Positions 10,598-14,076 of a stretch of DNA of 64,000 nt are shown one piece after another (the first letter of the stretch is position 1; each line of letters begins with the position of its first letter). The position numbers were made by a program, and so were the translations under genes. The notes beneath the pieces are model-generated. The model made no database searches. It saw only the letters and a program-made list of their open reading frames with translations, and was not told the origin of the DNA. Origin of the DNA: Bacteriovorax stolpii (lineage in GTDB: Bacteria; Bdellovibrionota; Bacteriovoracia; Bacteriovoracales; Bacteriovoracaceae); assembly GCA_945860895.1 (NCBI GenBank), contig CAMASK010000002.1, forward strand, positions 1 to 64,000, in the 5' to 3' direction.

Positions 10598-11338
10598 ATG
10601 AAAATTAGAATTCTAAGTTATAACATACATAAAGGCTTTACCATTGGTAATACCGATTTCATTCTGGAGCAAATACGCAATGCCATGAGAGAAGTGAATG
10701 CCGATGTCCTTTTTTTACAAGAGGTCTTAGGTGACCATAATGACAAACGCTGCAGGATACCGGATTGGGAAACTGCCATACAATTTGAATATCTGGCCGA
10801 CACAGTATGGCCACACTTTGCTTATGGTAAAAATGCCATCTACTCTGAAGGCCATCACGGAAATGCCATTTTGAGTAAATTTCCCATTACTGATTGGTCA
10901 AACAAACTAATCAGTACGAATCGTTTTGAACAACGAGGCCTATTGAAAGCTAAAATACAAATACCTCAATTAGAAAGAGAAATTATACTAGCCACAACTC
11001 ATCTTGATCTTACTCAAGGTGGCAGAGATCTACAGGCGAAAAAAATTATTGACGACCTCATGAAAGATGCTGAAACACCATTCGTTTTATTAGGCGATTT
11101 CAATGACTGGAATAACAAAATTTCTAGAAGAATCGAATCCGAACTTGGAGTTGTTGAAGCTTTTAAAGAGATACATGGAAAATATCCAGCAACATTCCCC
11201 AGTTTTATGCCGTTGCTTTCACTTGACCGCGTTTTTTTGAATAAAATTAGACCTAGTAAAGCAATAACTCTTAAAGATGCTCATTGGCGTAAACTTTCTG
11301 ACCACCTTCCTCTGTACGTTGAAGCTGAAATTGATTAA
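10598..11338 (+). CDS. Endonuclease/exonuclease/phosphatase-family protein (YbhP-like)
   Basis: The 246-residue protein is a single EEP (DNase I-like) domain: RILSYNIHKG at the N-terminus, FLQEV as the metal-binding Glu, TTHLDL, LLGDFNDW, and SDHLPLYVEAE at the C-terminus. All canonical catalytic residues are visible. It starts 3 nt after the cardiolipin synthase-like gene, matching the E. coli clsB-ybhP order, where YbhP is thought to act on a phospholipid-derived substrate. A DNA or inositol-phosphate substrate cannot be excluded. No signal peptide is seen. Its stop overlaps the convergent S51 peptidase gene by 4 nt. Confidence 0.85.
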   Translation: MKIRILSYNIHKGFTIGNTDFILEQIRNAMREVNADVLFLQEVLGDHNDKRCRIPDWETAIQFEYLADTVWPHFAYGKNAIYSEGHHGNAILSKFPITDWSNKLISTNRFEQRGLLKAKIQIPQLEREIILATTHLDLTQGGRDLQAKKIIDDLMKDAETPFVLLGDFNDWNNKISRRIESELGVVEAFKEIHGKYPATFPSFMPLLSLDRVFLNKIRPSKAITLKDAHWRKLSDHLPLYVEAEID

Positions 11339-11997
11339 TTGATATTGAACTTGTGCCCCTTTGAATAAGCGTAACACTTTCCAATAAATCTGATCTCATC
11401 ATCTTTTACTACGATTCCGGCACCATCAGGGCAAGCATAAATTATCTTGTCTGTAGAGCGGGTATATTTATTGAAGACAGCATCATAGCGTGGTGAATTT
11501 TTAAAGTGGGGAAAAAATAAAAAATCAACGAGATTCAGTGCACTGAGATTTTTTACATTTACAATATTTTCATCCCTATCAAAGTCCGGATATCCGGCCA
11601 TCTCAATGTTTTCAGTCATCATAATCGCACCGGCCGATAACCCAGAAAGTACTCCACCTTTTTCAGCGAATTTTTTAAGTTGAGGGAGAAGTTTTGCCTT
11701 CCTAAGACTATTTAAAAAATAAAACGTATTTCCACCAGCCATATGTATGGCATCACTCCTCATCACTTCTGAAAAAATAATTTTATCAAAAGGTACATCA
11801 ATGGGAAAATAAATGAATCTGGTGATTTTAAATTTAGAGTAGTGCCTCACAAAGGATTTAAACTCTTGCTCGGAGAGATAAGAGGATGATGGAATAAAAG
11901 TAATGACAGGATTTTTCTTATCTATTAACTCTAAAAAAGAGTGGTCCAGAGTAAGATTTTCTTTTTCGTCACCACCGCTGTAGAAAACAAGCTTCAT
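11335..11997 (-). CDS. Peptidase S51-family (PepE/cyanophycinase-like) hydrolase
   Basis: The 220-residue protein has the class-I-glutamine-amidotransferase-like S51 fold. The nucleophile elbow GLSAGA is near residue 120, preceded by AIHMAGGNTFYFL. Family members include dipeptidase E (Asp-X dipeptides) and cyanophycinase. The start overlaps the stop of the upstream SelO-like gene as ATGA, so translation is coupled and a shared role is plausible. There is no signal peptide, so it should act in the cytoplasm. The substrate is unknown. Confidence 0.8.
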   Translation of the reverse strand: MKLVFYSGGDEKENLTLDHSFLELIDKKNPVITFIPSSSYLSEQEFKSFVRHYSKFKITRFIYFPIDVPFDKIIFSEVMRSDAIHMAGGNTFYFLNSLRKAKLLPQLKKFAEKGGVLSGLSAGAIMMTENIEMAGYPDFDRDENIVNVKNLSALNLVDFLFFPHFKNSPRYDAVFNKYTRSTDKIIYACPDGAGIVVKDDEIRFIGKCYAYSKGHKFNIN

Positions 11998-13829
11998 AGC
12001 CCCTCACGGCATTCTCGAACAATCGAATACAAATTCTGCATGATGTTCTTATGCCGTTCAGGAGAATTGGCCACTACTAATTTCTGATCTGGATCAAGAT
12101 TCTGATACGAAGCAAATTGTTGAGATAGTTCAAATAATTCATGTGCAGTTAGCTTTGGACGCAGCTTCTGTACTTTTTGCACAATATAAGTAATCGAATC
12201 ACCAGTAACCCGATCGCATTTATTGATGACCGAACTTCGCATAGTCAATTCAAGCATGAGGTGAGTACGACTGATGTTGAAATCTTTTTCCAGGGCAGTG
12301 ATCAAAGATAAATAATGAGATTGAAAGCGGTTAATTTGTTTCTTACGAATGTCAGTCAACTTTAAATCACTCTTGCGTGCGTAGGATGATTTAATTATTT
12401 CCAAAAATTCTTCATGACTCAAAGTATTTAAACGAGTGAGATAGAGTTGTGGAAATTCACGCAAGATATCTCGCATACAGAAAATGGCATCACGATTAAT
12501 GCCATCCGGAACTTTATACATCCCTCTTTTTGATTTGGATCTTTCAAAATAACTAAAAACCTTGCGGAACCTAGTTACTTTATCGAGATGATTTTTAAGA
12601 AGATGGTCCTGATCTTTTTTCTTAAATCCAATTTTTTGTAATAAATTTTTGTTTTTTGAGTCAATGAAGTGCTTATCAAATGACTGCATAATAGGATGAG
12701 TTCTAAAGTGAGAAAGAGATTTTTTCTTCTTTGTTGTTAAAAAATCTGCAATCTGGATAAAGCACTGAACAATGTAGCGAGCCTTCTGTCTCTGCTCCAA
12801 AATTGTTGTAGAATATCTTTGCACATCATCATACCGATATTCGGCATGAAATAATCCAAACTGACGAATTGAGCCGTAGTCAATGATTCCCCCATCCATC
12901 AGGATGTTGTCTCCATCCCAATCCAACCAGCAAAAGATATACTCATTCTCAAATTTGGCAGCAGTTTCAGCAAACGATCGGGCCATTTGAGAGGCTAAGT
13001 AATAATATTTTTCTTTAGTTGTTTTAAAGCTTGTAACTTCCCAAGCCTTATTTTCAACTTGGCGAGAAATATAGTAATCGGCTACTTGCTTCAAGGTTTC
13101 AAGATTACCCTGCCTCAAGTGACTAAAAAAATGACTTGGTCTGATCAAATTGGGATTAGCGCGGACATTGATCCCAATACCTTTATCGTATTCAAGGATG
13201 GCCAGGACTCGTTCGGTTTTGAACCCATTCTTCCCCAAAACTTCGGAAAAGAATAGAGTTTCTAACCCTTCGGCCACTTCCGAGAGACCGCAACCATAGG
13301 AAACACTAGGGTCCCCAGTCTGATAGAATTTTTTATTGATGTTACAGGCCGGAGATAATTTAGTCCCACCAGTCCCACAACTAGAAACATCCCATGTGAT
13401 TCCATTATTTCTCACAGAACCATTCCAAATTGTTCTTCCATCTCCAGAGGTTCTTCCCATTTTATCAGGGTGCTGCAACTGAAGATAACGAGTGGCCATG
13501 AAGGTATTTGGAAAAATATCCTCTTCCGCGAATTTTATGTCGTTCATCAAATCGTATTCATTGATGATAGTTAAACTAAAGGTATCTAGAATTTCTCTTT
13601 CCAGATCAGGAGTTAAACTATTCGGATGATTTTTTGCAATTAGACCCATCTCTTTAGCGAGCTCAAAATTGAAGAAAGCAACTTTGCCACCTTTACGGTA
13701 ACGGGCCTTGTATTCAACTCTGCCGCCAGGGACCTGGGTTTTGAAGGGATGCTCGCCATTAAGCTGACTAAAATTGGTATAAGAGCGCTTGCCGACTTCG
13801 TCCGTTGGACTTTTTTTAATTGAATTCAT
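11994..13829 (-). CDS. Divergent SelO-like (YdiU/UPF0061) pseudokinase-fold protein
   Basis: SelO proteins are kinase-fold enzymes that transfer AMP to other proteins using flipped ATP. This 611-residue protein keeps the SelO order: SGDGR at 128-132, then WDVSSCG (WDxxxKG in SelO), a region like DGRAVLRSS (GDPSVSYGCGLSE), and DN-x8-D near residue 307 (GDNILMDGGIIDYG). The spacing from the metal Asn308 to Asp317 is 9 residues, the same as in SelO. However, the ATP-contacting Lys is Cys151 and the following DG is DP, so activity is uncertain. An extra basic C-terminal region of over 200 residues follows. The gene is coupled to the S51 peptidase (ATGA). This assignment rests on motifs only. Confidence 0.55.
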   Translation of the reverse strand: MNSIKKSPTDEVGKRSYTNFSQLNGEHPFKTQVPGGRVEYKARYRKGGKVAFFNFELAKEMGLIAKNHPNSLTPDLEREILDTFSLTIINEYDLMNDIKFAEEDIFPNTFMATRYLQLQHPDKMGRTSGDGRTIWNGSVRNNGITWDVSSCGTGGTKLSPACNINKKFYQTGDPSVSYGCGLSEVAEGLETLFFSEVLGKNGFKTERVLAILEYDKGIGINVRANPNLIRPSHFFSHLRQGNLETLKQVADYYISRQVENKAWEVTSFKTTKEKYYYLASQMARSFAETAAKFENEYIFCWLDWDGDNILMDGGIIDYGSIRQFGLFHAEYRYDDVQRYSTTILEQRQKARYIVQCFIQIADFLTTKKKKSLSHFRTHPIMQSFDKHFIDSKNKNLLQKIGFKKKDQDHLLKNHLDKVTRFRKVFSYFERSKSKRGMYKVPDGINRDAIFCMRDILREFPQLYLTRLNTLSHEEFLEIIKSSYARKSDLKLTDIRKKQINRFQSHYLSLITALEKDFNISRTHLMLELTMRSSVINKCDRVTGDSITYIVQKVQKLRPKLTAHELFELSQQFASYQNLDPDQKLVVANSPERHKNIMQNLYSIVRECREGL

Positions 13830-14076
13830 TAGCTTTTATCAATCCTTCGATAAATTTCTAAACAAAAACCTTACTACCATTATAGGACCGTTTTGCAAAA
13901 GTTGACAAAAAAACATGAAGCTAGGCAAAAAATAAATTCCCGACAGTATTCATTTAGTAATCCATGCATCCTTAGGCCGGCGTTATGAGTAAAAGAAGTG
14001 AAATTAATAAATTCATCTTCATCCAATCCTAACCTTTCTTAACAAAATCCTAGCAAGCACTTTGAAGACAGTTATA

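Follow-up and report, generated by a model that had tools for sequence, protein, structure and literature searches.

The window analysed here is a stretch of 64,000 nucleotides from Bacteriovorax stolpii (contig CAMASK010000002.1), part of a draft genome of 2.79 Mb (G000, in which the window contig is labelled C2). On its reverse strand lie the gene for a 611-residue protein, a member of a lysine-less branch of the SelO family, and directly behind it the gene for a peptidase of family S51 (Table 1). An original prediction, made from the sequence alone, had placed the S51 start inside the stop codon of the SelO-like gene; the junction reads CTATGAAG, and the S51 ATG (11997-11995) does overlap the SelO-like TGA (11996-11994). 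The two genes are likely to share one two-gene transcript. The next gene above, about 400 bp upstream of the SelO-like gene and on the same strand, encodes an M15 peptidase, and the next below the S51 gene is a convergent open reading frame of the exonuclease/endonuclease/phosphatase family (10598-11338). The promoter-like sequence in Table 1 is weak, and the promoter scan as a whole gave 7 sites against 8.7 expected from shuffled sequences, which is no excess.

Table 1 Features of the SelO-like/S51 locus in window coordinates; residue counts are over readable relatives.
Feature	Position	Strand	Basis
SelO-like protein gene, 611 residues, Lys-less SelO-family branch	11994..13829	-	NF000658, hhalign, AlphaFold (AF2) model and PDB matches
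S51 family peptidase gene, 220 residues, partner	11335..11997	-	PF03575, invariant active-site residues, PDB matches
ATGA overlap of SelO-like stop and S51 start	11994..11997	-	sequence
SGDGR, codons 128-132 (SelO GDGR glycine-loop motif)	13434..13448	-	108/108 relatives
Cys, codon 151, at SelO beta3-Lys (K113) site	13377..13379	-	C 72, R 25, S 7, G 2, Q 1, A 1, K 0 (n=108)
Thr, codon 191, at SelO alphaC-Glu (E136) site	13257..13259	-	T 51, A 28, S 26, G 3, Q 1, acidic 0 (n=109)
Arg, codon 223, at SelO R176 site	13161..13163	-	109/109; alignments
Arg, codon 230, at SelO R183 site	13140..13142	-	109/109; alignments
D307 catalytic-loop Asp and N308 metal-binding Asn (SelO N253), codons 307-308	12906..12911	-	110/110
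DYG Asp, codon 317 (SelO D262)	12879..12881	-	110/110
Promoter-like TTGTCA-18-TATAAT, 50 bp before SelO-like start	13879..13908	-	11/12 consensus positions; weak

Relationship of the 611-residue protein to SelO

The 611-residue product is a relative of SelO by sequence and by fold. The NCBIfam YdiU model NF000658 matched its residues 100-468 (E 4.9e-10) with 39.1 bits against a curated cut-off of 431 bits, so the score of the canonical family is not reached; five other members (L064, L097, L116, L118 and L131) matched the same model at 1.1e-14 to 2.8e-9, also far below the cut-off. A Pfam-A search with the window protein returned no match, PF02696 included, and PF02696 was matched by 5 of the 23 members of the family profile (best 1.7e-8). 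When this 23-member profile was compared with 15 canonical SelOs of the same phylum, hhalign gave a probability of 97.9% and an E value of 4.9e-13. A search of the profile against PDB sequences was borderline, with SelO/YdiU at the top at E 0.056-0.061, and this weakens the sequence-homology case.

An AlphaFold (AF2) model of the window protein was built from 32 sequences, with a mean predicted local distance difference test (pLDDT) score of 81.1 and a predicted template modelling (pTM) score of 0.84. The Foldseek search of the PDB could have shown another fold; its nine matches with E below 0.001 were all SelO/YdiU chains (1.2e-11 to 1.8e-9), the next match reaching only 0.056. Structural realignment to YdiU, with the stretches of low model confidence omitted, gave a Z score of 26.8 over 430 positions, from residue 18 to residue 611. 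Because the model aligns over this whole length, the C-terminal part corresponds to SelO's own C-terminal region, and the long C-terminal extension proposed originally is largely that region; the extra length relative to SelO looks spread over insertions. To call the protein a new kinase-fold branch was likewise too strong, as it is a SelO branch by both sequence and fold. After SelO, the NIS siderophore synthetases were best in the structural comparison (Z 8.8-10.9), ahead of ROP pseudokinases (8.1). The 50 structural matches listed comprise SelO, NIS synthetases, ROP pseudokinases, a coronavirus polymerase complex and protein kinases, and the absence of other families from them is uninformative.

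The window genome also holds a canonical SelO with the lysine (TKGSG; L001, contig C101, 402 bits), and the SelO-like protein is a paralogue, not the genome's SelO. The SelO-like query matched 219 of the 368 genomes of the phylum, 11 of them weakly (E above 1e-10, matches that could be canonical SelO or other proteins). Per-genome counts given below cover the 149 genomes listed (150 matches) out of these 219. Since canonical SelO (E below 1e-20) co-occurs with the SelO-like gene in 114 of the 149, the SelO-like protein probably does another job than SelO. In a second phylum, that of L064 (a 'Deltaproteobacteria bacterium' record), the gene was found in 5 of 188 sampled genomes. A search of phages, with viral contigs outside its scan, gave no SelO-like match; three plasmid matches had E values of 3e-3 to 9e-3, and the two that were checked are canonical SelO by NCBIfam.

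Residues of the SelO-like active site

To place the active-site residues, 110 distinct proteins of the family, encoded at the loci fetched, were compared, and counts at each site were taken over readable rows; two of these proteins are without the N-terminal part (L027 and L062), one is a fusion (L058) and one runs off its contig (L155). Residues were related to SelO through positions 111, 134, 174, 181, 246 and 255 of the canonical L001, whose spacings fit the P. syringae numbering. The correspondences K-C151, E-T191, R-R223, R-R230, N-N308 and D-D317 agreed between hhalign and two MAFFT modes. According to excerpts of a review, the gamma-phosphate of a flipped ATP in P. syringae SelO is coordinated by Lys113, which Glu136 supports, and is held by Arg176 and Arg183 as well; the metal ligands are Asn253 and Asp262, the latter being the base (PMC8097203).

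The landmarks first used to assign the protein to SelO (SGDGR, WDxxxxG at 146-152, D307-N308 and D317, with 9 residues from N308 to D317) are all present, and by the NF000658 and hhalign results they are beyond chance. The lysine of KGxGxTPYSR is indeed Cys151 in the window protein, and Lys stands there in 0 of 108 relatives. The change of the following DG to DP fared less well; D173-P174 is present but is a weak landmark: among 79 relatives, D occurs at 173 in 60 and P at 174 in 55. An altered active site had been proposed on the strength of the lysine; a divergent SelO with changed residues it is, but the change goes beyond one lysine to the alphaC Glu, which is gone too. The TPYSR motif of SelO is replaced in the family by TxLSP or TxLAP. 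One helical turn before residue 191, position 187 is acidic throughout (E187 in the window protein; E 97, D 12, n=109), and the residue may have taken on a new role.

Because the other ligands are invariant while Lys occurs in 0 of 108 and an acidic residue in 0 of 109 proteins at the two changed sites, the change appears to be a selective one in a single subsite and not general decay. The loss of the Lys-Glu pair in a site that is otherwise frozen is read here, from sequence comparison, as pointing to a rebuilt active site. A catalytic or redox role for Cys151 was considered and is ruled out by the Ser, Gly, Gln, Ala or Arg found there in relatives; since small neutral residues alternate at 151, the Cys does no chemistry. 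A separate observation concerns residue 300, just before the catalytic loop (window 12930-12932), which covaries with position 151: nearly all members without Arg151 have Cys there, and those of the Arg151 branch, apart from L156, have Ala, Val or Thr.

The S51 peptidase and the Arg151 branch

The S51 protein scored 109.6 bits against Pfam Peptidase_S51 (PF03575; cut-off 23.9), and Ser121 (in GxSAG), Asp142, His164 and the GGNT motif are invariant in 55 S51 homologues. Its nearest solved structure is Lmo0363 (3l4e, E 2.1e-14), followed by PepE-type peptidases at 5e-4 and worse. The protein lies below the equivalog cut-offs of both PepE (46.2 of 156 bits) and cyanophycinase (40.3 of 126.6 bits). 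A role in cyanophycin metabolism was rejected on this score and because no cyanophycin synthetase above the curated cut-off was found in any of the 29 genomes searched; sub-threshold synthetase matches were present in all 29 and equally in all 14 control genomes.

The same pair was sought in relatives, and an S51 gene lies within 500 bp of the SelO-like gene in 97 of the 149 genomes, 94 times downstream on the same strand and three times divergently upstream. Of the rest, 47 are without a strong S51 match and 5 have a non-adjacent S51 gene, about 2.5 kb off in G333 and on other contigs in G090 (where the SelO-like gene sits at a contig end), G281, G309 and G310. Conversely, 117 genomes have a strong S51 match (E 1.5e-33 or better), and 115 of them, all but G277 and G280, also matched the SelO-like query. 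Outer neighbours were compared at the 45 of 47 loci with S51 directly behind where both were readable. They belong to 18 upstream and 20 downstream families in 27 combinations, which fall into 11 groups without any common neighbour family. The S51 gene is a real partner of the SelO-like gene.

In the S51 tree a long branch parts the partner subfamily from most other S51 paralogues. Unlinked genes of two other families also belong to this subfamily, and the S51 genes of the divergent arrangement fall with those (support 93/94, unstarred), so linkage has been rearranged, lost or gained. A single clade of all linked S51 genes was rejected, as the constrained tree fitted worse (approximately unbiased test, p 0.02, with long branches present). 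Two loci are unusual. At L058:2507-4528, and in a like arrangement in G067:C137, one frame runs from SelO-like sequence to about residue 511 straight into S51 sequence from about residue 109; this in-frame fusion misses both junction parts and may be a deletion or a misassembly. G081, for which 9% contamination is listed, carries two SelO-like/S51 pairs (C1 and C5), one of which may be foreign.

The 25 loci with Arg at 151 form a branch with the motif SSRGTG/VGVTxLxPG. Within four genes of the SelO-like gene, 19 of them encode a protein of about 400 residues that looks like an ATP-grasp enzyme by profile matching: its profile matched homoglutathione synthetase in the PDB (8.4e-6), and among the 19 proteins 10 matched Pfam TTL (best 1e-5) and 10 YheC/D ATP-grasp (best 6.1e-5). 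The gene occurs in 50 of the 149 genomes, and in 35 the SelO-like gene is no more than 15 kb away (19 within 400 bp, 13 at 0.8-1.9 kb and 3 at 9-12 kb). In none of the 149 is the SelO-like gene linked to both S51 and ATP-grasp. The ATP-grasp link may be plain synteny, because other neighbours come close to it in conservation (clusters 4, 11 and 13 in 17, 16 and 13 of the 25 loci) and the gene is also present in genomes without a SelO-like gene, such as G040.

Position 151 as a switch that sets the partner was tried and rejected. On a 79-row tree, made by a quick method after near-identical and some partial rows had been dropped, Arg151 changes twice and S51 linkage five times, and a pair test of one against the other gave 3 informative pairs (sign test p 1). 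The association of Arg151 with lack of S51 is suggestive only, a clade effect in which one Arg151 member (L156) has S51. Two further observations were made. The window genome's own ATP-grasp copy (G000:C119:2183-2844) consists of two separate matches, from a broken gene or an assembly end. Genes of the endonuclease/exonuclease/phosphatase family lie near the SelO-like gene in both branches (window 10598-11338; cluster 4 at the Arg151 loci). They belong to different clusters, differ in orientation and may be there by chance.

Candidate functions and comparison with known systems

The preferred reading, to which a probability of about one half is given, is that of an active transferase that depends on metal and nucleotide, has an altered donor pocket and shares a pathway with the S51 peptidase. 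The paralogue would keep the SelO fold and most of the catalytic machinery, but its version of the pocket in which SelO binds the ATP gamma-phosphate would have been rebuilt. As a nucleotide-dependent transferase it would use nucleotidyl or acyl-adenylate chemistry, and its donor or its acceptor would not be that of SelO. The S51 serine peptidase would act in the same pathway, probably from the same transcript, and would cut a bond of peptide or Asp type, either in the substrate or in the product; the catalysis and the order of action we infer.

Bolder forms would also fit. The donor might be one without a gamma-phosphate, such as NAD+; YdiU has been crystallised with NAD+ according to the PDB titles of 9jym and 9l29, and SelO is reported to hydrolyse NAD+ as an NADase in a 2026 Cell report, as given in an excerpted commentary (PMC13391479). 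Alternatively, an acyl-adenylating ligase might be paired with the bond-breaking S51 enzyme. The most specific form is a long shot: a SelO-fold conjugating enzyme would activate a carboxylate as an acyl-adenylate, or use a donor of the NAD+ type, and would join an amino acid or peptide to a substrate. S51 would trim or reverse the bond, and the Arg151 branch, with its ATP-grasp neighbour resembling glutathione synthetase and tubulin-tyrosine ligase, would be the other half of the same amide-bond theme. Precedents for acyl-adenylation by a kinase fold are SidJ and, through a weak structural resemblance, the NIS synthetases.

Several results weigh against a working transferase tied to S51. Model confidence is low at residues 153-182 and 324-339. 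In excerpts of the SidJ work, polyglutamylation is lost with K367A at the kinase-like site (PMC6858067), so loss of the lysine could mean no catalysis. No S51 gene is adjacent at 24 of the 25 Arg151 loci, L156 being the exception; four of the 24 (L103, L123, L153 and L154) have less than 1 kb of flank on one side. The same holds for 14 of 83 non-Arg151 proteins. In two of the 14 (L038 and L155) the sequence stops with the gene or shortly after it, and in L038 the start of an S51 gene is visible. Three others of the 14, related to each other (L130, L158 and L159), are without adjacent S51 despite 5 kb of flank on both sides. All five members from the other phylum are among the 14, and their fetched flanks held no S51 gene; nor do the five show the ATP-grasp link. 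S51 lies elsewhere in one of these five genomes (in two pieces), as does ATP-grasp in one. S51 is thus either not needed everywhere or replaced in the other phylum. S51 is not an obligatory partner, and the genome counts come from related genomes and depend on their kinship.

The main rival is a pseudoenzyme that binds nucleotide or metal without catalysis and serves as regulator or scaffold for S51. Loss of both residues of the Lys-Glu ion pair, the change of TPYSR to TxLSP/TxLAP and a fixed neighbourhood with one enzyme across many genomes would all suit it. Against this option, raised in the original prediction, stand the unvarying catalytic-loop Asp, metal Asn and DYG Asp (110/110) and arginines (109/109), as well as the Arg151 and other-phylum members, in which these residues persist although no S51 lies beside the gene; it is considered unlikely. 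Retention of those ligands and of the fold would equally suit a SelO-type protein AMPylase or UMPylase in which Arg230, Arg223 or a shifted residue replaces the Lys, S51 being merely co-regulated. The Arg found at 151 in 25 of 108 proteins could stand in for the Lys, but the Cys, Ser, Gly, Gln or Ala of the other 83 are unlikely substitutes, the alphaC Glu is lost too, canonical SelO is already present in 114 of 149 genomes, and S51 is retained while other neighbours vary. A SelO-type activity of this kind is judged improbable.

That the two genes share no function and were simply inherited side by side is thought very improbable. In its favour, the genomes counted are related, the 79-row tree shows no more than 5 changes of S51 linkage, and other-phylum members are without adjacent S51. 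Against this, at the 66 non-Arg151 loci with long flanks (three unreadable) S51 is by far the commonest neighbour, within four genes in 50 against 23 for the next, the 11 contexts share no outer neighbour, and a second, divergent arrangement exists in another branch.

The pair of a conserved SelO relative and S51 in many Bdellovibrio-related bacteria hints at an undescribed two-enzyme pathway. The original prediction took a SelO with a coupled peptidase to be an unfamiliar arrangement. A search of the open-licence PMC literature for SelO or AMPylation with S51, peptidase E, cyanophycinase, ATP-grasp or Bdellovibrio did not find the pair among the papers listed. SelO neighbourhoods have been analysed (PMC10364804), with no mention of S51 in the excerpts of that paper; excerpts elsewhere list SelO among bacterial pseudokinases (PMC12599244) or mention it (PMC10870513). 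SelO itself was once deemed a pseudokinase and later proved an AMPylase. A large SelO branch minus the gamma-phosphate Lys/Glu pair, its other ligands frozen, is a natural experiment on what the pocket is for, and the S51 partner gives a handle on a substrate that would otherwise be guesswork.

Among known systems, peptidase family S51 includes the aspartyl dipeptidase PepE, cyanophycinase and Lmo0363; the window S51 keeps the Ser/His pair and GGNT of the family but differs from PepE and cyanophycinase in scoring below both equivalog cut-offs. The NIS siderophore synthetases (SbnC, AcsD and IucA) are acyl-adenylating ligases. They are the next-best structural matches, with Z scores far below SelO and little above the ROP pseudokinases, and gave no match in the family-profile sequence search of the PDB. 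SidJ, a pseudokinase glutamylase of kinase fold, sets a precedent for adenylating a carboxylate and ligating an amino acid; unlike the SelO-like family it keeps its Lys (K367) and needs it, according to the excerpted paper (PMC6858067). MchC of microcin H47 maturation is a remote SelO subfamily in the excerpted SelO survey (PMC3281104); like the window protein, it is distantly related to SelO and has a partner gene of its own. It differs in keeping the Lys (VKGIGSNP) and in its HlyC-like acyltransferase partner, whereas the window gene is flanked by S51 and M15 peptidases. With hhalign, the single MchC sequence of E. coli Nissle 1917 had no significant match to the family (8.5%) and gave just 8.8% against canonical SelO, so the comparison is weak. 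The closest known system is the SelO/YdiU adenylyl(uridylyl)transferase itself (PF02696, NF000658; 6eac, 6lna, 9jym), with which the family shares the whole-length fold, the GDGR loop, the two phosphate arginines and the DN and DYG motifs at equal spacing, and from which it differs in having about 600-650 residues instead of about 480 and in being without the beta3 Lys, the alphaC Glu and TPYSR.

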